Shown here: positions 7,561 through 23,429 of the stretch, one piece after another
How positions within the stretch are numbered: position 1 is the first letter of the stretch
Layout: each line of letters begins with the position of its first letter
From: Thermoanaerobaculia bacterium
GTDB lineage: Bacteria; Acidobacteriota; Thermoanaerobaculia; UBA5066; DATFVB01
DNA length: 47,636 bases
Assembly: GCA_035717485.1 (NCBI GenBank)
Contig: DASTIQ010000068.1
Span: 1-47,636 of the forward strand
Direction: 5' to 3'
Notes under the pieces: generated by a model
The model's database searches: none
What the model saw: only the letters and a program-made list of their open reading frames with translations
What the model was told of the DNA's origin: nothing
Program-made: the position numbers and the translations under genes

Positions 7561-9531
7561 TTAGCGCCGGCCCGATACCGGGGACGGAGCGGGAGGGGCG
7601 GCCGGATCGATCGCGGGACGCGCGGGCGCGGCGGACGGCGCCGCCGCCGACTCGTACCCGAACACGCCGCCGCCGTACGTCCCCGCGTAGAGGGTCGACG
7701 GGGCCGCCGGATCGAAGGCGAGGGAAAAAACCGTGGGGTTCGTGAGGCCGGCGTTCACCGGCGTCCAGCTCGATCCGCCGTCGTCGCTCCGGAAGACGCC
7801 TCCGTCGCGAGTCCCCGCGTACAGCGAGTCGCCGGCGGGATCGAAGGCGAGGCTGTAGACGCTCGCCGCCGCCAACCCCGAGCTCGACGACCGCCACGTG
7901 CTCCCGCCGTCGGCGCTCGACCAGATTCCGGCGCCGTCGACGCCCGCGTAGAGGCGCGCGGGATCGCGGGGATCGATCGCGATCGAGAACACGGACCCGG
8001 AGAAGGCGCCCGCCCCCGCGGCGGTCCACGTCGCGCCGCGGTCCGTGCTCCGAAACAGCCCGTTCCCGGTTCCCGCGTAGAGCAGCGCTCCGCCGGGGGC
8101 GACCGCCATCGAGAACACGGTCTCGTTGGCGGAGCCCAGGGGGATCGCCGTCCAGGTCGCGCCGGAATCCTCGCTCCTCATCAGGCCTCCGAGATACGTC
8201 CCCGCGTAGACGACCGCGGGGTTGGCCGGGTCGATCGCCAGCGAATACACGTTGTTCGTCCCGGGAAGGCCCGCGGAAGGCGTCCACGTCACGCCGTCGG
8301 GAGAGGTCCAGAGCCCCTGGTCGGTTCCCGCGTACATCTTCTGGCCGCTGCGCGAAAGGGTGAAGACGGTCAGCGCGTCGATTTCGGCGGGCTGCCACGT
8401 CGCTCCTCCGTCGACGCTTCGCAGGATCCCGCTCCCTCCGGTCGCCGCGTAGACGGCTTCCGGCGTCGCGGCGATCGCGTTGACGACGGTCCCGTTCATC
8501 CCGCGGTTGCCCGCGGCCCAGGTCGCGCCGCCGTCGCCGCTCCGGAACGTTCCGAGATTCGTGCCCGCCCACACCGTTCCGGGGGATCGCGGGTCGGTGC
8601 GCAGAGCGAAGACCGTCGCGCGAGAGACCGCCGGCGCCGACTGTTCCCAGCTCGTTCCGCCGTCGGCGCTCCGCCAGACGCCGCCGTCGAGCGTGCCGGC
8701 CCAGACCGTTCCGGCAACTGCGGCGTCCGCGGCGACCGCGTAGACGTTGGCGGACGAGAAAGGAGAAGCAGAGGGCGCCCACGTTGCACCGCCGTCGTCG
8801 CTCTTCCAGACGCCCTCTCCAAATGTCGCTGCCCAAAGGGTCGAAGGATTCGCCCGGTCGATGTCGAGGTCCATGACGAAAGTGGAGGCGATCGGCCCCG
8901 ACGCCGTCGTCCAGGTCGTTCCTCCGTCGGTGCTGGCGAGGACGCCGCCTCCGGCGGTTCCCGCCCAGATCCGGCCCGAGTGCGCGGCGTCGGCCGCCAG
9001 CGCATAGACCGCCTGCCCCGCCGCCGCCGAGGCGGTCGCGGTCCAGGATCCGCCGGCGTCGGCGGAACGGAAGACGCCCGAGGATTGCGTGCCCGCGTAC
9101 ACCGTGCCGCCCGCGTCGACCGCGATCGAATACACGGTCGTCTCGGGAAGGCCGGCGTTGGCCGCGCTCCAGCTCTTGCCTCCGTCGACCGATCGCAGCA
9201 CCCCGTCGTCGGTCGCGGCGAAAAGCGCGCCCCGTCCGGCGGCGAGGTCGTTGACGACGGATCCCACGCCGCCGCCCGTCGCGATCCGGGACCAGCTCGC
9301 GCCCGCGTCGCGGCTGACGAACAGGCCGCCTCCGTATGTCCCTTCCCACACGACCCCCGCCGACGACGGATCGGGAAGGAGCGCGCTGACGAGCCCCCCT
9401 TCCGGGCCGAGGCTCGACCACTTGCCGATCGCGGCGGCCGACGGGGCCGCGAGGGCGGCGGCGACGATCCACGCGGCCGAAACCGTCCGGATTCGACACG
9501 ACGGACGGGCGGGGATCGAAAGTCCTTTCAT
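7561..9531 (-). CDS. secreted BNR-repeat propeller protein
   Basis: Exported protein of 656 residues. After an N-terminal signal region (MKGLSIPARPSCRIRTVSAA with a hydrophobic stretch ending in APSAAA) it has about 13 BNR/Asp-box repeats of about 43 residues with the core S-x-D-G-G-x-[ST]-W, each preceded by a strand of the type V-Y-A-G-T. This is the sortilin/VPS10-like or photosystem-stability-factor-like beta-propeller fold. The C-terminus is a short Pro/Ala-rich tail with no anchor. The ATG at 9531 is chosen for AAAGGAGAAG just upstream. Function is unknown; such proteins are surface or secreted, often glycan- or protein-binding. It lies downstream of another large exported protein in the same orientation, with a terminator between. 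Confidence 0.85.
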   Translation of the reverse strand: MKGLSIPARPSCRIRTVSAAWIVAAALAAPSAAAIGKWSSLGPEGGLVSALLPDPSSAGVVWEGTYGGGLFVSRDAGASWSRIATGGGVGSVVNDLAAGRGALFAATDDGVLRSVDGGKSWSAANAGLPETTVYSIAVDAGGTVYAGTQSSGVFRSADAGGSWTATASAAAGQAVYALAADAAHSGRIWAGTAGGGVLASTDGGTTWTTASGPIASTFVMDLDIDRANPSTLWAATFGEGVWKSDDGGATWAPSASPFSSANVYAVAADAAVAGTVWAGTLDGGVWRSADGGTSWEQSAPAVSRATVFALRTDPRSPGTVWAGTNLGTFRSGDGGATWAAGNRGMNGTVVNAIAATPEAVYAATGGSGILRSVDGGATWQPAEIDALTVFTLSRSGQKMYAGTDQGLWTSPDGVTWTPSAGLPGTNNVYSLAIDPANPAVVYAGTYLGGLMRSEDSGATWTAIPLGSANETVFSMAVAPGGALLYAGTGNGLFRSTDRGATWTAAGAGAFSGSVFSIAIDPRDPARLYAGVDGAGIWSSADGGSTWRSSSSGLAAASVYSLAFDPAGDSLYAGTRDGGVFRSDDGGSSWTPVNAGLTNPTVFSLAFDPAAPSTLYAGTYGGGVFGYESAAAPSAAPARPAIDPAAPPAPSPVSGRR

Positions 9532-9584
9532 CTTCTCCTTTGTCGAGGTGTGTCGAGTGTGTGCACTCGCCACCCTCGTGAAGA

Positions 9585-9634
9585 AGAGAAAAGCAAGACA
9601 CGTGCCCGCGGCCAACTCTCACGGCCGCGGGCAC
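9585..9634 (-). terminator. strong hairpin terminator
   Basis: A perfect 12-bp inverted repeat (GTGCCCGCGGCC at 9602-9613, GGCCGCGGGCAC at 9623-9634) has a 9 nt loop. On the minus strand it is followed by a pyrimidine-rich run containing CTTTTCTCTTC. It lies 14 nt after the stop of the SLH-domain protein and separates it from the next minus-strand gene. Confidence 0.75.
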
Positions 9635-9648
9635 TTGCAGGGCTCTCT

Positions 9649-12600
9649 TTACTGGAGGGTGAGCCCGTACGTGTTCGTGAGGAACTTCGACATCTCGCCG
9701 CGCGTGACGGCGTCGCCCGGCCCGTACAGGCCGTTTCCGTATCCGTCCACGATGTTCTTCGACCAGATGAAGTAGATGTACCTGCATCCGGTGTCGGAGT
9801 CGGGAACGTCGGTGAAAGCGTTGGCACCGCCGTCCGTGCAGTCGTACCCGCGCCCGTTGCCCGGATCCGCGAGCTTCGCGGGGACCGAGGAATCGCCCCC
9901 CGCGAGATCCCGCGCCAGCATCACGGCCATGCTCCGCCGGAGAATGTTCGTCCCGGGGCAGAACGTCGACGTGTACTGCGCCGCGTCCGTGCAGCCGTAC
10001 GCGAGACCGTGCGCCGCCACCCAGTGGATGTTCGCGCAGAACTCCGCCGTCGGCGCCACGTCGGAAAACAGGCTGTGCCCGCCCGATTGGCAGTCGTAGG
10101 TCCCCAGGCCGGGAACGGTCCCGGAAACCGGCACGTTCTGATCGCCGCCCGTGTGGCCGCGAGAGATGAAGGCGGACATCTGCCCGCGCGTCGTGTCGTC
10201 GTCGGGACTGTACGTGCGATAACCGGTGCCGACGGTGATCGAACGGTGAAAGATCGTCTCGACGTCGGAGTAATAGATGTTCGACGTCGGAACGTCGGTG
10301 AAGCTCCGGCCGATGTGGATCGTCCAGTCGTGGGCTTCCGAGGTATTGAGCGCTTCCGAGGCGACCGCATCCCAGTGCGCCGCGGGGCGGGACGTCGTCT
10401 TGACGAGGAGCTGATACCCTCCGCCCGCCGAGGCGGTCGCGCCGGCCGCGATGTCCCCGTACGACGCGTTCCCGTCGACGATCGTGTACGTGGCGCCGCC
10501 GGTCGTGGGACCGGTGAAGCTCGTGATCGTCCCGGTCGTTCCCGCGACGACTCCGTCGCTGGTGTTCTTCCAGGAAGGAGAGAACGCGGAGGTCTCGCCC
10601 CCCTCGAGGACACCGTTCGGCTCGGTGGTGGTCGCGGGATACGGCGATCTCCCCTCGATCGTCGCCGTCGTCGGCGCCATGACGTCTCCCTGCGAGATGT
10701 ACGTGGCGGTGTACGTCGCGGAGGCCGCGCCGGCCACGATCGAATGCGTCTGGGCGCCGCCGTCGGACCACCCGTCGAACCAGTAGGCCGAGGCGTTCAG
10801 GCTCTCCGGAGAAGCCGCGCTGATCGTGTTGGTCGAACCGACGATGACGGTCTTCGAGAACGGCGTCGTGACGCCGCCGTCTCCGGCGTCGAGCTGAAGC
10901 CCGGACGGCGAGGCCGCGAAGTGGAGCACGACCGTCTGCGGCTGGAGGATGACGCTCGTCGTGCCGGTGAGACCCAGCGAGTCGGTCGCCGTGAGCTGCA
11001 GCTCCAGAAATGACGGATACCCGTGATCGGGAGCGGAAAACGACCCGCTCGAAACGCCGGCGAAAGACTGGATCTCGTGCGTGTGACAGTTCGACGGACA
11101 GTGGTGCATGACGAGCGTCCACGTCAGCGCCGACGCGGGGATCGTGCCGTCCTGCGGGTCGGTCGCGTGTCCGGAGAACGAGATCGGGTCGCCGACCTTC
11201 CAGGTGAGCGACGACGAGGGCGTGTCGATCACGGGCGAGGGCGCCCCCTGGGCCACCGTCACCGTCAACGGATCGCTCACCCCCGACACGCCGTGCTCGT
11301 CGGTGACCTTGAGTCTCACCGTGTACTGGCCCGCCGTCGAGTAGGTCTTCGCGGGCGAGACCGCGGTCGAATCGTTGAAGACGCCGTCGCCGTTCAGATC
11401 CCACGCGTACGTCAGCGTGTCTCCCGCCGCCGCGCCGTGGGAGCCGCTCCCGTCGAACTGCACGGTCAGCGGCGGCGCTCCGGACTCGGGGGTCGCCGTC
11501 GCCACGGCGGCCGGCGTCATGTACTGGATGCGGTGGATCGCGCCGCCCTCGTGATCGACGTAGAACAGATCGCCCCCGGGCCCGATCTCGAGGTCGACCG
11601 GGTGCGACGCGCCCCCGATGAAGAGCGCGCGGCTGGACGCGTTCGGCTGGCCGCCGGAGCCGGGAAAGAGCACCCACGCGCAGTTCCGGGTGTGATCGGC
11701 GAAGAAAAGCGCGCCGTCGTAGGTCGAGGGGTAGCTCCCGCCGCCGTAGAACGCGAGGCCGGTGATCGACGAACCTCCCGTCGCGCAGCCGTCGCCGGAG
11801 ACGACGCTGTCGGTGTGGCGATAGCCGAGAAACGGCGCCGTCACGACCGAAGGATTCTTGTACAGGTCGTTCATGCAGATGTCGACCTGCGCGCTGACCC
11901 AGTCGGGTTCCTGGTCGGGCCCTTCGTAGCAGGGCCACCCGAAATTCTTCACTTCCGTCGTGGGGCTCGGCGCGACGTCGATCTCCTCCCAGACTTCGTT
12001 GCCCACGTCGCCGATCCAGAGCTTGTTCGTGTTGGGCTGGATCGTGAAGCGGAACGGCTGGCGAAGACCCTCGACGACGATCCGGCGCGCGTTGGCGTCG
12101 GCGCTCGACGCGAGCGGGTTGGTCGAAAGCCCGCTTCCGGTCGCGGGGTCGACGCGGATGACCGTCCCGTTCAGGACCGCGGGCTCGCCCGGCTGCCGCC
12201 GCAGGCTCTGGCTTCGGAGCGCCCCTCCTTCCGCCGTCGGCGGCTCCATCGTCCCTCCGACGCCGCCGGGCGGATCGCCGAGCGGGTTGCCGCCGAACTG
12301 GCCGTAGTCGACCGTTCCCATGCTCGCTCCGTCGCCGTCGCTCGCGTAGAGCGCGCCGTCGGCGCCGAACTGGAGCGCGCCGAGGGAGTGGCTGGGAAAC
12401 TGCTGTCCCCACGCGTTGATGAGGACCTTCTCGGAACCCGACATCACGCTTCCGTTCGCCGTCAGACGGGAGAGCCGTCCGCTGACGACGCAGCCGTCGG
12501 TATTCGGCCCGGGAGGCGTGGGACACGCGTCGTTCCAGACCGGCGCCGTCCCGCCGATCGGGGCATCGTAGGCGTACAGGACGTAGACGTACGGGCTCGT

Positions 12601-12933
12601 CGGGAAATTGGGGTCGAGAGCCATCCCGAGGAGGCCGCGATCCCAGTAGTTGTCCACGTTCGTGGTCAGGTCGGCGAAGATCGTCGGCGTCGTCGCGGTC
12701 AGGCTCGAGAAGACCTTGATCACGCCGCTCTTCTCGGCGACGAAGATCCGTCCGTCCGGAGAAAACCGCACGACGGTCGGGCGGATGAGGCCGCTCAGCA
12801 CGATCGAGTCGTGGAATCCCGGCGGGAGCGTTTCGGTCTGAGCCGCGGCCGAACCGGCGAGAGTTCCGAAGGCGGCGGCGAAAATGGGAACCAGAAATCC
12901 GGCAAACATCCGGGTCGGGAATTTGGAATGCAC
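9649..12933 (-). CDS. GSDH-like propeller with PKD and SLH domains
   Basis: Large exported protein of 1094 residues. A signal peptide is followed by a six-bladed soluble glucose/sorbosone dehydrogenase-like propeller (about residues 30-490) with signatures such as FSPDGRIFVAEKSG, RGLLGMALDPNFP and NFGWPCYEGPD. A PKD domain (TYAWDLNGDGVFNDS) comes next, then further Ig-like or Big-type segments, and three S-layer homology repeats at the C-terminus (FTDVP..., FSDVAPT..., FTDVPDSD...) ending in TRGEMSKFL. It is likely surface-attached through the SLH domains and may oxidise or bind sugars with PQQ, but the cofactor residues were not verified. The GTG start at 12933 has GGAGGG 7 nt upstream. Confidence 0.85.
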   Translation of the reverse strand: MHSKFPTRMFAGFLVPIFAAAFGTLAGSAAAQTETLPPGFHDSIVLSGLIRPTVVRFSPDGRIFVAEKSGVIKVFSSLTATTPTIFADLTTNVDNYWDRGLLGMALDPNFPTSPYVYVLYAYDAPIGGTAPVWNDACPTPPGPNTDGCVVSGRLSRLTANGSVMSGSEKVLINAWGQQFPSHSLGALQFGADGALYASDGDGASMGTVDYGQFGGNPLGDPPGGVGGTMEPPTAEGGALRSQSLRRQPGEPAVLNGTVIRVDPATGSGLSTNPLASSADANARRIVVEGLRQPFRFTIQPNTNKLWIGDVGNEVWEEIDVAPSPTTEVKNFGWPCYEGPDQEPDWVSAQVDICMNDLYKNPSVVTAPFLGYRHTDSVVSGDGCATGGSSITGLAFYGGGSYPSTYDGALFFADHTRNCAWVLFPGSGGQPNASSRALFIGGASHPVDLEIGPGGDLFYVDHEGGAIHRIQYMTPAAVATATPESGAPPLTVQFDGSGSHGAAAGDTLTYAWDLNGDGVFNDSTAVSPAKTYSTAGQYTVRLKVTDEHGVSGVSDPLTVTVAQGAPSPVIDTPSSSLTWKVGDPISFSGHATDPQDGTIPASALTWTLVMHHCPSNCHTHEIQSFAGVSSGSFSAPDHGYPSFLELQLTATDSLGLTGTTSVILQPQTVVLHFAASPSGLQLDAGDGGVTTPFSKTVIVGSTNTISAASPESLNASAYWFDGWSDGGAQTHSIVAGAASATYTATYISQGDVMAPTTATIEGRSPYPATTTEPNGVLEGGETSAFSPSWKNTSDGVVAGTTGTITSFTGPTTGGATYTIVDGNASYGDIAAGATASAGGGYQLLVKTTSRPAAHWDAVASEALNTSEAHDWTIHIGRSFTDVPTSNIYYSDVETIFHRSITVGTGYRTYSPDDDTTRGQMSAFISRGHTGGDQNVPVSGTVPGLGTYDCQSGGHSLFSDVAPTAEFCANIHWVAAHGLAYGCTDAAQYTSTFCPGTNILRRSMAVMLARDLAGGDSSVPAKLADPGNGRGYDCTDGGANAFTDVPDSDTGCRYIYFIWSKNIVDGYGNGLYGPGDAVTRGEMSKFLTNTYGLTLQ

Positions 12934-13007
12934 CGTGTCTCCCTCCGAGGTCGCTCCGGACCACACCGGAACGTGCGGGCCCAAGGTGCAAGTCGGATGC
13001 CGCGGGG

Positions 13008-13372: not shown

Positions 13373-13378
13373 TAATAT
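13373..13378 (+). promoter_or_regulatory. putative -10 box, leaderless operon start
   Basis: TAATAT ends exactly 6 nt before the ATG at 13385 and there is no Shine-Dalgarno sequence. This would start the three-gene operon transcript at or next to the start codon. Confidence 0.45.
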
Positions 13379-13384
13379 CTCCGC

Positions 13385-14776
13385 ATGCCGTTTCCGTTCA
13401 CGCCCGGCCTGACCGAACCCCGCCTCGTCGATCTCTCCGACCCTTCCGCCGACGTCCTGCTGAACGCGACGCGGGCCGAGCTCACGGAAGCCGTCCGGGC
13501 CGGCGACGTGGACGCGCTCGCCGGAATCGGCGGAGCGTTCGCCGCCGTCGCGCAGGAAGGAGTGACGATCCGCCTCGCGCGAACGATCGGGCGGCCGCTC
13601 CGCTACTTCGTGGCGAAGCGGGCGGCCGGCCCCTACCTCGTCGTCGCCGACCGCATCGACGCGATCGCCCGGTACTGCGCGGGCGAAGGGATCCCCGAGC
13701 AGTTCCACCCTTCCTACACGCGCATGGTGCCGGCGCACCACGTCGTCGAGCTCGATCAGATCGGATGTCCGGATCCGAATCCGCGGTACCGGCGGTTCTT
13801 CACGCCGGAGGCCGGCCGCGCCGCCGCGGATCTCCGGGCTCTGGGAGAGCGATACGTCGCCGCGATCGAGGACACCGTCGCCGCGCTCCTCCGCCGGATT
13901 TCGGCGGACGCGCCGATCGGCGTGGCGCTCTCCGGCGGGGCCGATTCGTCGCTCACCGCCTGGGCGGTCCTCTCGGCGGCGCGAGCCTCCGGCCGCGCGG
14001 GGCGGGTCGCGCTCTTCACGCTCTCGATCGGCGAATCCGACGACCGCCGTTCCGCGGAGGCGGTGGCCGACGCCCTCGGCGCCCGGGAGGCCTGGCGGAT
14101 GGTGGAAGCGGCGCCGGAGGATCTCTCGCTCGCCCGGGCGGTCGCCGCGATCGAAGACTACCGGCCGCTCGACGTCCAGTGCGCGGCGGCGGGGCTCGCG
14201 TTCGCGCGCAACCTCCGCCGCTCCGAGCCGGATCTCGTTCACCTGTTCGACGGGGACGGCGGGGACGAGAACTGGAAGTCGTACCCGCTCGGAGACTCGG
14301 AGCTCACGATCAAGAGCGTCCTGAACAACCCGCTCCTCTACCACGAGGGATGGGGAATCGACTCGATCAAGCACTCGCTCACTTACACCGGCGGTTTCTC
14401 GCGCGGCGTCACGCGCGGCTTCGCGCCGGCGCGCGCGTTCGGCTTCGTCCCGCTTTCCCCCCACGCGATGCGGCCGGCGATCGCCGCCGCGCTCGAGGCC
14501 CCGCTGCGCGATCTCGTCGGAGAGGACCCGGAACGGCTCGCCGTCCTGAAGGGCGAGGTCGTGGCGGCGGGGCTCGAAGCGCGCGGTGTCCGCCTGCCGA
14601 TCGCCCGGAAACGGCGTTTCCAGCAGGGCGCGATGTCTTCCGAGCACTTCGCCGCGCTCGCCGCGTCCCGGGCGGAGCTCCGCGCCATGCACGAGAGGCG
14701 GTTCGGCCCACCTCCGGACGCTGCCGAACCGGGCCGCGACGAGCCCGAGGCGCCTCCCCTTCCCGCGTTCGCATGA
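13385..14776 (+). CDS. asparagine synthetase-like ATP-dependent ligase
   Basis: Protein of 463 residues with an AsnB-type ATP pyrophosphatase domain. The PP-loop SGGADSS is at residues 183-189 and a second nucleotide/aspartyl loop, DGDGGDENWKSY, lies at about 289-300. The N-terminal 140 residues look like a degenerate class II glutaminase: PLRYFV and the strand-turn pattern remain, but the nucleophile Cys2 is absent (sequence begins MPFPF). Ammonia or an amine must therefore come from elsewhere, or the enzyme adenylates a carboxylate for another nucleophile, as in lasso-peptide cyclases and beta-lactam synthetases. It is the first gene of a tightly coupled operon; its stop overlaps the next ATG (ATGA). 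The substrate is unknown. True asparagine synthesis is less likely given the missing glutaminase and these partners. Confidence 0.82.
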   Translation: MPFPFTPGLTEPRLVDLSDPSADVLLNATRAELTEAVRAGDVDALAGIGGAFAAVAQEGVTIRLARTIGRPLRYFVAKRAAGPYLVVADRIDAIARYCAGEGIPEQFHPSYTRMVPAHHVVELDQIGCPDPNPRYRRFFTPEAGRAAADLRALGERYVAAIEDTVAALLRRISADAPIGVALSGGADSSLTAWAVLSAARASGRAGRVALFTLSIGESDDRRSAEAVADALGAREAWRMVEAAPEDLSLARAVAAIEDYRPLDVQCAAAGLAFARNLRRSEPDLVHLFDGDGGDENWKSYPLGDSELTIKSVLNNPLLYHEGWGIDSIKHSLTYTGGFSRGVTRGFAPARAFGFVPLSPHAMRPAIAAALEAPLRDLVGEDPERLAVLKGEVVAAGLEARGVRLPIARKRRFQQGAMSSEHFAALAASRAELRAMHERRFGPPPDAAEPGRDEPEAPPLPAFA

Positions 14777-15693
14777 CCCGCGGCGCGGACGCGCCGGACG
14801 GACCGCCCGTCGCGATCGCCCGGGAAACCGAGATCTTCCCGGGCGGAGCACCGCAAGCGATCGGAACGGCGTACCTCCGAAACGGCGCGTGCCCGCTCTC
14901 CTGCGTCTACTGCGCGCTCTACCGCCAGGCCGGCGACCGTCCCGCGACGGGCGCGGAAATCGCGCGGCAGATCCGGTCCGCCCGCGCGCGCCTGGGGGAC
15001 GTGGCCGGGATCAAGCTGTACAACGCCTCGTCGCTCTTCGAGGCCCGATCGATCCGGCAGACGACGGATGATCTCGCGGCGATCGCCGCCGAGGTTTCCG
15101 ATCTCGAGCTCGTCGTCGTCGAATCCCGTTCGGAACAGGCCGGCCGCGCGGCGGTGCTGGCGCCGCTCCTGCGGGGCCGCCTGGAAGTCGCGATCGGGCT
15201 CGAAGTCGCCGACGACTCCCTGCTGCGGCGGCTCGGGAAGCCGACTTCCGTCGCGCGGTTCACGCATGCCGCGCGGGAACTCGGACGCGCGGGGATCCTT
15301 CTCCGGGCGTTCGTGCTCGTCCAGCCGCCGTTCGTCGCTCCGGATCGTTCGCGGAGTCTCGCGCTCGACACCTTCCGGGTCGCGCGCGACTCCGGGGCGC
15401 GGGTCGTCTCCCTCCTGCCGGTCGTGTCGGACCACGCGCCGATGGAGCGGCTCCGCGCGGAGGGAGCCTTCGCGGAGATCGCCCTCGAAGCGTATTTCGA
15501 CGTCGTCGCGGATTGCGTCGCCGAGGGAGGCGCCGTGGTCCTCGCGGAGCTCGGTTCTCTCGACCGCCTGCCGGGGTGTGACCGCTGCCGCGCGGCCCGC
15601 ACCGCCGCGCTCGCGGCGCTGAACGCGGGCGGAGCGCTGCCGGCGGTTTCCTGCGACCGCCACCGCCGGCCGGACGCGGCGGCGGGCGCGTGA
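14773..15693 (+). CDS. radical SAM enzyme of unknown substrate
   Basis: Radical SAM protein of 306 residues. The cluster-binding motif is CPLSCVYC (Cys40, Cys44, Cys47), followed by a partial TIM barrel with E-S-R-S and GLEVADDSLLRRLGK segments like those of the Elp3/oxygen-independent coproporphyrinogen oxidase superfamily. A second Cys group near the C-terminus (CDRC, then Cys in VSCDRH) could hold an auxiliary cluster or zinc. The start ATG overlaps the preceding stop (ATGA) and its own stop overlaps the next GTG (GTGA), so all three genes are translationally coupled. No SPASM domain of normal length is visible. The reaction is unknown. Confidence 0.85.
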   Translation: MTRGADAPDGPPVAIARETEIFPGGAPQAIGTAYLRNGACPLSCVYCALYRQAGDRPATGAEIARQIRSARARLGDVAGIKLYNASSLFEARSIRQTTDDLAAIAAEVSDLELVVVESRSEQAGRAAVLAPLLRGRLEVAIGLEVADDSLLRRLGKPTSVARFTHAARELGRAGILLRAFVLVQPPFVAPDRSRSLALDTFRVARDSGARVVSLLPVVSDHAPMERLRAEGAFAEIALEAYFDVVADCVAEGGAVVLAELGSLDRLPGCDRCRAARTAALAALNAGGALPAVSCDRHRRPDAAAGA

Positions 15694-17222
15694 GGAGGTT
15701 CGACCTCGCGGTCGTCGGCTCGGGGTTCGGCGGCGCTCTCCTCGCGCTGGCCGCGCGCCGGCTCGGACGGAGCGTCGTGGTCCTCGAGAAGGGCGCGCAC
15801 CCGCGCTTCGCGATCGGCGAATCCACGTCGCCTCTGGCGAACCTCCTCCTCGAGAGGCTCGCGCTCCGTTACGATCTCCCGCAGGTCCTTCCGCTCGCGA
15901 AATGGGGAACCTGGCAGGCTCGGCTTCCGCACCTGCGCGGCGGCGTCAAGCGCGGCTTCACGTTCTTCCATCACCGGCGCGGCCGCGAGCCCTTGGACGA
16001 GGGCGAACTGCGAAATCCCCTTCTCGTCGCCGCGAGCCCGAATGCCGCCGTGGCCGACACGCACTGGTACCGCGCGGACGTCGATCTCCACCTCCTCGAA
16101 CAGGCGCGCGCCGCGGGCGCCGAGTACGTGGATCGGATCGCGCTCGATCGTTTCGAGGCCGACGGGAAGGCCGTTCGCCTGTCTGGCCGGCGCGGCGGGG
16201 AGCGCGTCGACGTGGAGGCGCGATGGGTCGCGGATGCCTCGGGACCGCGAGGCTTCCTCCACGGGGTCCTCGGACTCGGCGAATCGGAGTTTCCCGGACT
16301 CCCCCGGACGGCCGCGCTGTACGCGCATTTTCGCGGCGTCGCGCCGATGACGGAGATCGCGCCTCTCTCCTCTCCGCCTCCCTATCCCGTCGACGACGCC
16401 GCTCTCCACCACGTCTTCGAGGGCGGATGGATCTGGGTGCTTCGCTTCGCGGACGGCACCGTGAGCGCGGGAGCGATGCTTTCGCCGGAACTCGCCCTCG
16501 AGGTGCGAGCCGAGGAAGGCGAGGCGGCGTGGCGGCGGCTGCTGAAGACGTTCCCCGCGATCGACCGCCAGTTTCGCCGGGCGGAGTCCCTGTTCCCGCT
16601 TCGCTACTCCGAGAAGGTCGCCTTCCGCACGACGGCCGCGAGCGGCCCCGGCTGGTGGATGCTCCCGTCGGCCGCGGCGTTCGTCGATCCGCTGCTGTCG
16701 ACCGGCATTCCGCTGACGCTCCTCGGCGTCGCGCGCGCGGCCGCCGCGCTCGAGGAGAGCAACGGCGATGCGGGCTTCGAGCGGAGCCTCGCCGAGCTCT
16801 CGGCACGGACGCTCGACGAGGCGGATTCCGCCGCGTCGCTCGTCGCCGCACTCTGGAGGAGCTTCGACGATTTCCCGACGTTCTGCGCGGCGACGATGCT
16901 CTATTTCGCCGCCGCGAGCTTCGGGGAGGCCTCGTGCCGGCTGGGCCGGGACGGACTGCCCGGATTCCTCGGATCCGACCGGCCGCCCCTGCGCCACGCG
17001 ATCTCGGAGGCGCTGCGGAGCGTCGACGGCGACTCTTCTTCCGCCGTCGGCGTCATCCGCCGCGCGATCGAGCCGTGGAACGTCGCGGGCCTCCTCGATC
17101 CGGCGAGGCGCAACTGGTATCCGGTGTGCGCATCCGATCTGCGCGAGGGAGCCTCGAAGCTCGGAGCGTCATCGATCGAGGTCGAACGGCTCCTCGAGCG
17201 GAGCGGGTTCGGAAACGGGTGA
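15690..17222 (+). CDS. halogenase-like FAD-dependent oxidoreductase
   Basis: Flavoprotein of 510 residues. The N-terminal dinucleotide fold has GSGFGG (residues 10-15) and an acidic strand end (VVVLEKG). The GESTSP motif (43-48) matches the GE[AS]xxP motif of tryptophan-halogenase and geranylgeranyl-reductase-type flavoproteins. WIWVLR (247-252) is where flavin-dependent halogenases have WxWxIP; the Pro is missing, so halogenation is doubtful and a dehydrogenase or hydroxylase role is as likely. The FAD-contact region WWMLPSAAAFVDPLLSTGIP (about 324-343) fits the family. The GTG start overlaps the radical SAM stop. It is the last coupled gene of the operon. Confidence 0.83.
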   Translation: MRRFDLAVVGSGFGGALLALAARRLGRSVVVLEKGAHPRFAIGESTSPLANLLLERLALRYDLPQVLPLAKWGTWQARLPHLRGGVKRGFTFFHHRRGREPLDEGELRNPLLVAASPNAAVADTHWYRADVDLHLLEQARAAGAEYVDRIALDRFEADGKAVRLSGRRGGERVDVEARWVADASGPRGFLHGVLGLGESEFPGLPRTAALYAHFRGVAPMTEIAPLSSPPPYPVDDAALHHVFEGGWIWVLRFADGTVSAGAMLSPELALEVRAEEGEAAWRRLLKTFPAIDRQFRRAESLFPLRYSEKVAFRTTAASGPGWWMLPSAAAFVDPLLSTGIPLTLLGVARAAAALEESNGDAGFERSLAELSARTLDEADSAASLVAALWRSFDDFPTFCAATMLYFAAASFGEASCRLGRDGLPGFLGSDRPPLRHAISEALRSVDGDSSSAVGVIRRAIEPWNVAGLLDPARRNWYPVCASDLREGASKLGASSIEVERLLERSGFGNG

Positions 17223-17344
17223 CGGGCCCTTCCCGCCGTACGGGTGGCGCCGACAAAACGAGGCGGGCCGGCCGCGCCGGAGCTCGCTCAGGCGAGCGAA
17301 GGCCGGTGGCACGCCCCCTGCTCCCGGTTTCCCCGGGAGGAACC

Positions 17345-17515
17345 ATGCGAGACGACGAAGAGACGGGCGCCGAGCACGACACCTACGACTCGAACGACCC
17401 CGACCGCGATCGGGAGACGGCGCAGGGCGCGCGGGTTGCCGACGGAAAGACGGCGGGGACGAGAAAACCGGATACCGAGCGGCGCGATGCTCCGCCGCGC
17501 CACCCGCGCGCTTGA
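17345..17515 (+). CDS. small acidic/charged hypothetical protein
   Basis: Open frame of 56 codons with a good ribosome-binding site (GGGAGGAA ending 2 nt before ATG). The product is highly hydrophilic: an Asp/Glu-rich first half containing DTYDSNDPDRDRE and a Lys/Arg/Pro-rich second half. There is no Cys, no signal peptide and no membrane segment; it is probably disordered. It starts 122 nt after the flavoprotein stop on the same strand, so it may be the last gene of that operon and could in principle be a peptide substrate or partner. It has no recognised family, and the evidence for expression is only the ribosome site. Confidence 0.4.
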   Translation: MRDDEETGAEHDTYDSNDPDRDRETAQGARVADGKTAGTRKPDTERRDAPPRHPRA

Positions 17516-17582: not shown

Positions 17583-17852
17583 CTAGAGGGCGCGTTCGGA
17601 GGAGGACGTCCCGGGGCGACGGAAGACGTATCCGCACGTGGGACACCATTCTTCGCCGCTCGCGTCCACGCGCGCATAGAGCTCGCCGTCGCAACCGTCG
17701 GGGTTCGGGCAGTGGCGGACGGCCTTCGCCGGCTTTCCCGCGTGGAGAACGTAGCCGCACTTCGGACACCATTCTTCGCCGGAAGCATCCGCGCGCGCGT
17801 AGAGCTCTCCGTCACAGCCGTTGGGGTTCGGACACTTTCCGGACGTCGTCAT
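17583..17852 (-). CDS. tandem double zinc-ribbon protein
   Basis: Protein of 89 residues made of two nearly identical zinc ribbons. Each runs CPNPxGCDGELYAR, then DASGEEWCPxCGYV, so each has four Cys ligands (C-x5-C ... C-x2-C). The two units (about residues 7-36 and 48-77) are joined by a short basic linker and followed by a Ser/Arg tail. The duplication is evidently recent. Function is unknown; such ribbons bind nucleic acid or protein. GGAGGAG lies just upstream of the ATG. It is divergent from the Cys-rich protein at 18063. Confidence 0.75.
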   Translation of the reverse strand: MTTSGKCPNPNGCDGELYARADASGEEWCPKCGYVLHAGKPAKAVRHCPNPDGCDGELYARVDASGEEWCPTCGYVFRRPGTSSSERAL

Positions 17853-20348: not shown

Positions 20349-23300
20349 ATGGAACTCTCGCGCCGCGGATTCTTCAAAGCCACGACAATCGGCGGGACTC
20401 TCGCGCTCGGCTTCGACGTCTCGAAGGCGCAGGCGGAGATGCGGGAGCTCAGGATCTCGCGCACGACCGAGACCCGGAGCACCTGCCCGTACTGCGCCGT
20501 CTCCTGCGGCGTGATCGTCCACACGCTCGGGGACAAGTCGAAGAACGCGACTCCCGCGGTCGTGCACGTCGAGGGCGATCCCGACCACCCGATCAACCGG
20601 GGAACGCTCTGCCCGAAGGGGACGACGCTGCGCGACGACATCAACAGCCCGAACCGGCTGAAGAAACCGCAGGTTCGCCGGCCGGGATCGGACAAGTGGG
20701 AAGACATCTCCTGGGACGACGCGATCGCGAAGATCGCGCGCCACATCAAGGACACGCGGGACCGCTGCTTCGTCGCCAAGAACGCCAAGGGAGAGACCGT
20801 CAACCGAAATCCCGGCATGGCGCTGATCGGCGGCTGCACGGACACGACCGAATTCAACTACCTCTACTGGAAGGCGGCGTCCGCCTGGGGAGTCCCGTAC
20901 AGGGATACCCAGGCACGGGTTTGACACGGCCCCACGGTGGCCAGTTTGGCCGCCACGTTCGGCCGCGGGGCGATGACCAACGGATGGGTCGACATCAAGA
21001 ATGCCGACGTCGTTCTGTGCATGGGCGGCAATCCCGCCGAGAACCACCCCTGCGGCTTCAAATGGGCGATCGAAGCGAAGAAGACCCGTAACGCGAAGCT
21101 CATCTCGGTCGATCCGCGGTTCACCCGCACCTCCGCCGTCGCCGACCTCTATTCGCCGATCCGCTCCGGCACCGACATCGCCTATCTCCTCGGCATCATC
21201 CGGTACGCGATCGCCAACAACCGGTTCCACGAGGAATACGTCAAGATCCACACGAACGCCCCCTACATCATCGGCTCGAAGTTCGATTTCCAGGACGGTC
21301 TCTTCTCCGGGTTCGACGAGGGGAAGGGGGAATACGACAAGACGACCTGGGCGTACGAGGCCGACCCGAAGACGAAGACGTACTCGCTCGACCCGACGCT
21401 CCAGAACCCGCGCTGCGTGTTCCAGCTGCTGAAGAAGCACGTCGAGCGGTACACGCCGGAGACGATCGAGAAGATCTGCGGTACCCCGAAGGAGACGTTC
21501 CTCAAGGTCGCCGAGCTCGTCACGTCCACGGGCAACGCCGCCCGCGTCGGAACGATCATGTACGCGCTCGGATGGACGCAGCACTCGATCGGGGTTCAGA
21601 TGATCCGCACGGCGGCGATGCTCCAGCTGCTGCTCGGCAACGTCGGACGGCCCGGAGGCGGCGTCAACGCGCTGCGCGGCCACTCGAACATCCAGGGCGC
21701 GACCGATACCGCGGGCGTCTTCGACATCCTTCCCGGGTATCTCAAGACCCCTCCCGCCGCCTCGCAGACGCTCTCGACGTACCTCGAGGGCGCGACCCCG
21801 ACGGTCCTGGGGAAGCAGGCGTGGGCGACGATGAACTACTGGGTCAACTACCCGAAGTTCACGGTGTCGCTCCTGAAGGCGATCTACGGAAAGAACTCCA
21901 CGAAAGAGAACGACTGGGGATACAACTGGCTCCCGAAGATCGACGGCAACTACTCGTGGATGTACATCTTCGACGACATGTACCGCGGCAACTCGATGCG
22001 CGCGGGGGGGAAAGAACCCGGCCCCGAGGGGCTGATCACGTTCGGCATGAATCCCGTCGGCATCGGGCCGAACTCGCCCAAGATGATCGGCGCGCTCTCG
22101 AAGCTCAAGTGGCTCGTCGTCGTCGAGAACCACGACATCGAGACGGCCACCTTCTGGAAAGCCCCGAAGGAATACGGCGGCGCCGATCCTTCGAAGATCG
22201 CGACGGAGGTGTTCAACCTGCCGGCGTCGAACTTCATCGAGAAGGACGGCAGCTTCACGAACTCCGCGCGGTGGATGCAGTGGAAGTGGAAGGCCCTCGA
22301 TCCTCCGGGACTCATCAAGACCGACCAGGAGATCCTCGCGCGGATCTTCCTCGCCGTCCGCGACCTCTACAAGAAGGAGGGCGGCGCGCTCCCCGAACAG
22401 GTCGCCAACGTCGACTGGTCCTATTCCAATCCCGCCGCGCCCGATCTGTCCGAGGTCCTGAAGGAGTTGAACGGCAAGGCGCTCGCGGACATCCCGGACC
22501 CGAAGGACAAGACCAAGCCGCTCAAGACCGCCGGGCAGCAGATCGACGGCTTCGCGCAGCTCCAGGACGACGGCTCGACGATGTGCGGCAACTGGCTCAT
22601 GTCGGGCGTCTTCACCGAAGCCGGCAACATGGCGCAGCGGCGGAGTCCCGTCGACGACCCGAGCGGCCTCGGCATGTACCACAACTGGGGTTTCTCCTGG
22701 CCCGCGAACCGCCGTGTCATGTACAACCGCGCATCCGCCGACGCCGAGGGGAAGCCCTGGGACCCGACGCGCGTCGGCATCCAGTGGAACGGCCAGAAGT
22801 GGGTGGGCGACGTCCCCGACATGAAGCCCGACGCCCCGCCCGGGACGTACGGCGCCTTCATCATGCTGCCCGAGGGGGTCGGGCGCCTCTACGCGCCGGT
22901 CCTCTCCGACGGGCCCTTCCCGGAGCACTACGAGGCGGTCGAGGCCCCCGTCGAAAACATGCTCCATCCCAAGGTGACGTCCAATCCGGCCTCGAAGAAA
23001 TTCAAATCGGACAAGGACGTCTACGGGTCGCCGAAGGATTTCCCGATCGTGTGCATGACCTACCGGTTGACCGAGATGTACCACTACTGGACCAAGCACA
23101 TCGAGCGATTGAACCAGCTCCAGCCCGGGTTCTTCATCGAGATCCCCGAGGAGCTCGCGAAGGAGAAGGGAATCGCCAACGGCGGCCGCGCCCGGGTGAC
23201 CTCCGCGCGCGGCTCGATCGAGGGGGTCGCGATGGTGACGAAGCGCCTTCGCCCCATGCACGTCGACGGGAAGCCGCTGTGGCAGATCGGATTCCCGCTG

Positions 23301-23429
23301 CACTGGGGCTACGAAGCGACCGCGGACCACACGGGCCCGCTCGCGAATTTCCTGACGCCGACCGCGATGGACCCGAACACGTGGACGCCGGAATACAAGA
23401 CGTTCCTCGTCAAGCTCGAGAAAGCGTGA
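20349..23429 (+). CDS. fdnG: selenocysteine formate dehydrogenase alpha subunit
   Basis: Catalytic subunit of a periplasmic formate dehydrogenase-N type enzyme (formate to CO2). Length is 1026 residues when the in-frame TGA at 20922-20924 is read as selenocysteine 192; reading stops at 191 residues otherwise. A Tat signal (SRRGFFK, residues 4-10), a 4Fe-4S site (C46, C49, C53, C88) and the active-site motif RV-Sec-HGPTV followed by FGRGAMTN match FdnG/FdoG closely (E. coli enzyme about 1015 residues). Both flanks of the TGA align with the family and a SECIS hairpin follows, so this is not a frameshift or pseudogene. The enzyme binds Mo or W with two MGD. AGGAGG lies 5 nt before the ATG. Its partners FdnH and FdnI follow directly. 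Confidence 0.95.
20922..20965 (+). promoter_or_regulatory. bacterial SECIS element
   Basis: The UGA (20922-20924) is followed after exactly 11 nt by a 7-bp stem (20936-20942 with 20948-20954, one G-U pair) closed by the loop AGUUU, which carries the GU that SelB requires. A lower stem CGGCC/GGCCG (20927-20931 with 20961-20965) extends it. The 11 nt spacing and GU apical loop match the known E. coli fdhF/fdnG requirement. The hairpin lies inside the coding sequence and directs Sec-tRNA insertion. Confidence 0.88.

Follow-up and report, generated by a model that had tools for sequence, protein, structure and literature searches.

Do three tightly packed genes in the genome of a Thermoanaerobaculia bacterium act together, and what might they make? 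The genes encode an AsnB-like synthetase, a radical S-adenosylmethionine (SAM) enzyme and a halogenase-like flavoprotein (together, the trio) and span positions 13385-17222 of the window, the whole 47,636-nucleotide stretch of contig DASTIQ010000068.1 (assembly GCA_035717485.1) that was analysed. An earlier note on this DNA, made from the letters alone, had suggested that the three enzymes work on one substrate. Comparative analysis of relatives supported joint action of the three, showing co-retention of the genes in two phyla, including unlinked copies. The trio is almost certainly one functional unit and very probably forms one undescribed pathway. Since all three enzymes belong, as distant members, to known superfamilies, the novelty lies in the combination and its conservation, and no paper on this three-enzyme set was found in the open literature. 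The trio would point to a genuine pathway, apparently not described so far, in little-studied bacteria of soil and water.

The genes overlap by 4 nucleotides at both junctions, as had been noted before (ATGA at 14773-14776 and GTGA at 15690-15693), and the intact PP-loop, CPLSCVYC, GESTSP and WIWVLR motifs called earlier were all located (Table 1). Among 64 linked trios in relatives, the exact 4-nucleotide overlap occurs in 30 at the first junction and in 38 at the second, which speaks for translational coupling. The trio of the sister genome (G001) shares 71-82% identity with that of the window. A chance trio was excluded by Pfam/NCBIfam matches for all three proteins and by approximately 50 relatives with the same gene order.

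Table 1. Positions of the trio genes and their key motifs in the window
Feature	Position	Strand	Basis
Predicted ATP-dependent amide synthetase, AsnB-like (class B asparagine-synthetase superfamily), 463 aa	13385..14776	+	PF00733 1.1e-14, AlphaFold2 (AF2) fold
PP-loop SGGADSS, residues 183-189	13931..13951	+	S183, G184, G185, D187 and S188 invariant in alignment A1
Radical SAM enzyme, RaSEA-like, 306 aa, C-terminal Cys pairs	14773..15693	+	TIGR01210 3.7e-14 (below cut-off), AF2 fold
CPLSCVYC, CxxxCxxC iron-sulphur motif, residues 40-47	14890..14913	+	C40, C44 and C47 invariant in alignment A2
Flavin-dependent halogenase-like protein, 510 aa	15690..17222	+	phmmer to PltM/CtcP; PF04820 4.7e-08, over cut-off
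GESTSP motif, residues 43-48	15816..15833	+	G43-E44-S45 and P48 in 80/81 rows, the other row gapped
Lys87, aligned with the catalytic lysine of PltM (K87) and CtcP (K98)	15948..15950	+	81/81 rows
WIWVLR replacing WxWxIP, residues 247-252	16428..16445	+	Alignment of 81 rows

A non-exhaustive scan with six peptide patterns, covering 84,980 species genomes, identified 62 flavoprotein loci, mostly in Acidobacteriota and also in Verrucomicrobiota and Planctomycetota, with single loci in Gemmatimonadota, Rhodothermota and Armatimonadota (phyla by record titles); a Nevskia-titled record lies on a 7.5-kb contig and may be a binning error. Relatives of the trio were found in at least six phyla, with the same gene order in most flavoprotein loci, and the neighbourhood search suggested in the earlier note revealed that homologues standing alone or beside different genes are not in the majority. 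Co-retention was assessed in two phylum samples, comprising 297 genomes of the window's phylum and 292 genomes of the phylum of a locus titled Planctomycetota (L059). In the window's phylum, the synthetase was present in 30 genomes and the flavoprotein in 28, all of them within the 30 (hypergeometric 3e-37); 26 of these 28 pairs were adjacent on one strand, and two lay on separate contigs of fragmented assemblies. In the second phylum, the synthetase and the radical enzyme occupied an identical set of 19 genomes, 18 of which, and no others, carried the flavoprotein (at least 480 bits, the next score being 340 bits).

The presence of the trio is patchy (10% of the genomes in one sample, 6.5% in the other), and its genes need not be linked. 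The flavoprotein gene lies apart from the other two in 10 of the 18 genomes of the second phylum; on one contig of G500, the synthetase and radical enzyme genes are at 4.02 Mb and the flavoprotein gene is at 4.35 Mb, 333 kb away. Moreover, in all 11 genomes where the flavoprotein locus lacked one or both partners, one copy each of the synthetase and the radical enzyme was present at another place. Because the genes are retained or lost together even when far apart on the chromosome, they very probably serve one pathway, and such unlinked yet retained copies are a stronger argument than the p-values. That the three are coincidental neighbours with unrelated functions is hardly credible: each superfamily is common and promiscuous, but gene order, overlap and co-retention in two separately sampled phyla, unlinked copies included, speak against it. 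Within the trio, the synthetase gene adjoins the radical enzyme gene in 16 of the 19 genomes of the second phylum, a tighter association than either has with the flavoprotein gene, which agrees with the correlated divergence of the proteins (r = 0.92 for this pair, 0.79 and 0.78 for the pairs with the flavoprotein). These correlations are only supportive, since vertical descent alone yields some correlation.

The synthetase scores 55.3 bits against the Asn_synthase superfamily profile (PF00733, cut-off 21), which places it in that superfamily, and 49 bits against asparagine synthetase B (TIGR01536, curated cut-off 267.1). Its AF2 model (pLDDT, the predicted local distance difference test score, 84.6) is closest among solved folds to beta-lactam synthetase (Z 25.0, root-mean-square deviation 4.1, 361 residues aligned), followed by human ASNS and E. 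coli AsnB (Z 24.6). In the structural alignment (VIA-align), residue 10 of the model pairs with AsnB residue 40 onward, and the nucleophile region, approximately the first 30-40 residues of these solved proteins, has no counterpart in the model. Neither the synthetase nor the consensus of its relatives has a Cys2 nucleophile, and an upstream extension of the open reading frame (ORF) with a usual start codon is impossible. The earlier observation of an AsnB-like protein without Cys2 holds, the glutaminase front end being missing and the PP-loop intact, and the structure prediction proposed at that time gave a beta-lactam synthetase/AsnB fold minus the nucleophile end. An ordinary asparagine synthetase, an identity that the earlier note had named as fatal to its proposal, was rejected on the TIGR01536 score and the missing nucleophile end.

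The alignment of 45 synthetase relatives contains 88 invariant columns; conserved elements include the PP-loop, D289-G290-D291-G292-G293-D294-E295 and K409, the putative equivalent of the catalytic lysine of AsnB. The ASNS motif SGEGSDE reads DGDGGDE in the synthetase, with Asp291 aligned in sequence to the position of AsnB Glu348, where beta-lactam synthetase has Tyr. A beta-lactam synthetase identity was rejected in view of this Asp and of the neighbours, among which no clavam or carbapenem genes were noticed. Overall, the synthetase shares with beta-lactam synthetase, AsnB and carbapenam synthetase the PP-loop synthetase fold and a remnant N-terminal nucleophile domain (Z 20-25), whereas it differs from them in the missing nucleophile end, the Asp in place of the AsnB Glu and an identity of at most 22%.

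The radical enzyme combines the CxxxCxxC motif with an ordinary radical SAM fold (partial TIM barrel; AF2 model, pLDDT 93.8), as is characteristic of the radical SAM superfamily, and its PF04055 score of 27.5 bits is slightly below the cut-off of 29.5. Its best families are RaSEA and MnmL, and its structural neighbours include Elp3, RlmN and MgmA. Against the RaSEA profile (TIGR01210, cut-off 212), the window enzyme reaches 52.7 bits and the relative at L042 83.8 bits, so that neither can be assigned to the family. The signatures CxxxCxxCDLW, KLYN, GLET and C-terminal CxxC pairs recur across relatives, with CALY replacing CDLW in the window and sister enzymes.

In comparison with solved structures, the flavoprotein matched the halogenases PltM (phmmer, 2.1e-42) and CtcP (3e-41) best; its match to QhpG in the family scan (2.2e-21) is more distant. 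Residues 1-414, comprising the flavin adenine dinucleotide domain and some of the C-terminal region, can be aligned with PltM and CtcP, and the GE-motif, the lysine and the WxW element are shared. The PltM K87A variant is inactive (PMC6424973), and the catalytic lysine of CtcP is K98 (PMC12400496). Unlike these enzymes, the trio flavoproteins have mostly lost the IP of WxWxIP and have no dedicated flavin reductase adjoining. The window protein itself has the catalytic lysine and not the WxWxIP motif. In the alignment of 81 rows, Trp247 is invariant, residue 249 is Trp in 72 and Tyr in nine, and residue 252, which is Pro in halogenases, is Arg in 51, Gln in 15, His in eight and Pro in three. 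A complete motif (WMWVIP) was found only at L063 and L064; as both lie inside the trio's group, the WIWVLR of the window is best interpreted as a halogenase motif that has drifted, judging from these aligned residues. In the tree, a 100/100 branch separates the trio flavoproteins, as a group of their own, from the five plasmid halogenases tested, which have the full WxWxIP and the lysine and one of which adjoins a PrnB homologue. Spread of the trio on plasmids was rejected, as no radical enzyme or synthetase was found on plasmids. Five genomes of the planctomycete sample (G514, G340, G367, G416 and G574) have a more distant halogenase-like protein and neither the trio synthetase nor the trio radical enzyme. 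The "flavin redox step" proposed earlier stands insofar as this is a flavoenzyme, but it is more halogenase-like than had been implied, given the invariant lysine and the full WxWxIP in two relatives.

With the chemistry of the enzymes assigned at moderate confidence, the chances are about even that the trio is a compact three-step pathway in which ATP-driven amide formation, a radical step and halogenation or oxidation take place on one aromatic carboxylate. The synthetase would activate a carboxylate with ATP (adenylation with release of pyrophosphate) and join an amine to it, using no glutaminase and no glutamine-derived ammonia. On the amide intermediate, the RaSEA-like enzyme would then carry out a radical reaction, which, if the parallel to ArcS/RaSEA holds, may break an amino-acid N-C bond so that the nitrogen stays in place. 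The flavoprotein, acting after or before these steps, would halogenate, or else hydroxylate or oxidise, an electron-rich phenolic or indolic ring. As no other gene constantly accompanies the trio, a common metabolite is the probable substrate, with a host macromolecule (RNA or protein) as the main rival.

The tight synthetase-radical pairing would fit a two-step nitrogen transfer of the ArcS/RaSEA kind, a logic of loading an amino acid and then cutting it that is, to our knowledge, known only from archaeosine. ArcS, too, forms a C-N bond on its intermediate, but the radical enzyme of the trio is bacterial, carries C-terminal Cys pairs and has no ArcS relative beside it. In archaeosine synthesis, ArcS first attaches lysine to its substrate, and RaSEA then generates the amidine archaeosine (PMC11298593). 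In the late steps of ammosamide C biosynthesis, a flavin-dependent halogenase (Amm3) chlorinates and an asparagine-synthase homologue (Amm20) probably amidates the same aromatic core (PMC12715798), a combination similar to that of the trio; on the other hand, the ammosamide system has many more genes, peptide aminoacyl-tRNA ligases (PEARLs) and a precursor peptide, it lacks a radical SAM enzyme bearing the cysteine motif, and the activity of Amm20 is putative. Carrying the analogy further, one may speculate, as an unlikely case, that the trio makes a small halogenated and amidated metabolite (signal or cofactor-like) in three steps with an obligate gene set in at least six phyla, in which the glutaminase-less AsnB relative would load an amino acid as nitrogen donor and the RaSEA-like enzyme would cut it off. 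As the trio has three genes, it is small enough for reconstruction in a laboratory host, and its product, any halogenation and the possible nitrogen-donor logic are directly testable.

Several points weigh against the three-step pathway. The catalytic Glu of AsnB is replaced by Asp in the synthetase, so its nucleophile may be unusual, and the RaSEA kinship of the radical enzyme is far below the family cut-off. The co-retention p-values (3e-37 and 3e-30) overstate independence, because the genomes counted are related, and G094, G169 and, in the second phylum, G578 have the synthetase without the flavoprotein at the threshold used. The Pro of WxWxIP is missing in most flavoproteins, which makes hydroxylation or another oxidation possible, and no dedicated flavin reductase accompanies the trio. 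These last two features, together with the Tyr in place of the second Trp in nine members, would fit a hydroxylase or dehydrogenase and an amidated, oxidised aromatic product. This alternative is a serious though lesser possibility, as the lysine is kept in all rows, WMWVIP persists in two members and the closest solved relatives are true halogenases.

It is also conceivable, if rather unlikely, that the trio modifies a protein or tRNA and not a small molecule. Modification of tRNA is common among PP-loop and RaSEA/Elp3/MnmL-like enzymes, and flavoproteins with the halogenase fold, such as QhpG, act on protein side chains. The best families and structural neighbours of the radical enzyme, the flavoprotein match to QhpG, the lack of a precursor peptide nearby and, in Planctomycetota and Verrucomicrobiota, the scattering of single gene copies between housekeeping genes, unlike typical natural-product clusters, are all consistent with such a role. 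Against it, the flavoprotein resembles PltM and CtcP, which act on free phenolics, much more closely (2e-42), the family scan found no RNA-binding domain in any trio protein, and the presence of the trio is patchy. QhpG hydroxylates a peptide Trp (PMC7876137). In the maturation of tryptophylquinone in QHNDH, QhpD and QhpG, like two of the trio enzymes, are a radical SAM enzyme and a halogenase-fold flavoprotein of one operon, but that operon contains the gene for the peptide substrate and no AsnB-like protein.

The neighbours of the trio in the window look like housekeeping genes, as do those of the dispersed copies elsewhere. In Acidobacteriaceae, the trio often adjoins an operon of UnbV/UnbU-like genes, which encodes FG-GAP/ASPIC proteins together with an RnfD-like membrane protein; such genes abut the trio at L055 as well. 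At L116 and L118, an UnbV-like gene in the same direction overlaps the flavoprotein gene by 4 nucleotides, followed at L118 by a second UnbV-like gene and an UnbU-like gene. The RnfD-like protein is homologous (8e-7) to the enediyne UnbU of Streptomyces clavuligerus, which sits in an UnbL-UnbV-UnbU-polyketide synthase (PKS) run; its DUF1702 protein is presumably the one named UnbL. In the sample of the window's phylum, eight of the 13 genomes with a close UnbU-like gene have the trio (2e-6). A tailoring or export cassette related to enediyne biology, in which the trio and these envelope proteins jointly handle a polyene or aromatic product that is exported, could account for such adjacency, yet it is quite improbable: the close UnbU-like gene is missing in 20 of the 28 trio genomes of this sample and was not found in the window's own genome, it occurs without the trio in five genomes, and no PKS or UnbL lies beside the trio. 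An obligate UnbV/UnbU partnership was rejected on the same absence, and the set is a frequent helper of the trio, not a constant part. In the three-step pathway, these proteins, present in Acidobacteriaceae and a few others, could possibly move or finish the product, and the trio gives UnbV and UnbU a context outside enediyne clusters. Contig C270 (L072-L075) of the window's own genome (G000) has four UnbV/ASPIC domains, with two more elsewhere in the genome, and an UnbU-like gene was not detectable in this genome.

Other candidate partners were recurrent but rare and were rejected, namely an NMT1-type ATP-binding cassette importer (near the trio at L013, L019, L029, L043, L045 and L118, among others, in Acidobacteriota and Armatimonadota) and an HMA-domain protein (L013, L019, L043 and L023). 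The 56-residue ORF to which the earlier note had drawn attention does exist after the flavoprotein gene (17345-17515) and has a good ribosome site, but it is not conserved with the operon: no counterpart follows the flavoprotein gene in the sister genome, and none in other relatives was convincing. It was rejected as a component or precursor. A search across relatives for a conserved small ORF within 2.5 kb of the trio, as expected for the precursor peptide of a RiPP cluster, also gave none, the ORF clusters found resembling antisense shadows of conserved genes.

Further features were observed in the window. A small protein at 17583-17852 (-) has two tandem Cys-rich repeats (CPNPxGCDGELYAR...CPxCGYV), of which the sister genome has a single one. 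Two large genes upstream, at 7561-12984 (-), encode proteins that look secreted from their sequence, one resembling a BNR/VPS10 propeller and the other a glucose/sorbosone dehydrogenase with PKD-like parts; the sister genome has similar genes next to its trio (L132). Finally, the formate dehydrogenase alpha subunit at 20349-23429 (+) contains an in-frame TGA (20922-20924) at the FdnG-type selenocysteine position (QARV-U-HGPTVASLAATFGRG) and is probably a selenoprotein that plain ORF calling splits in two.

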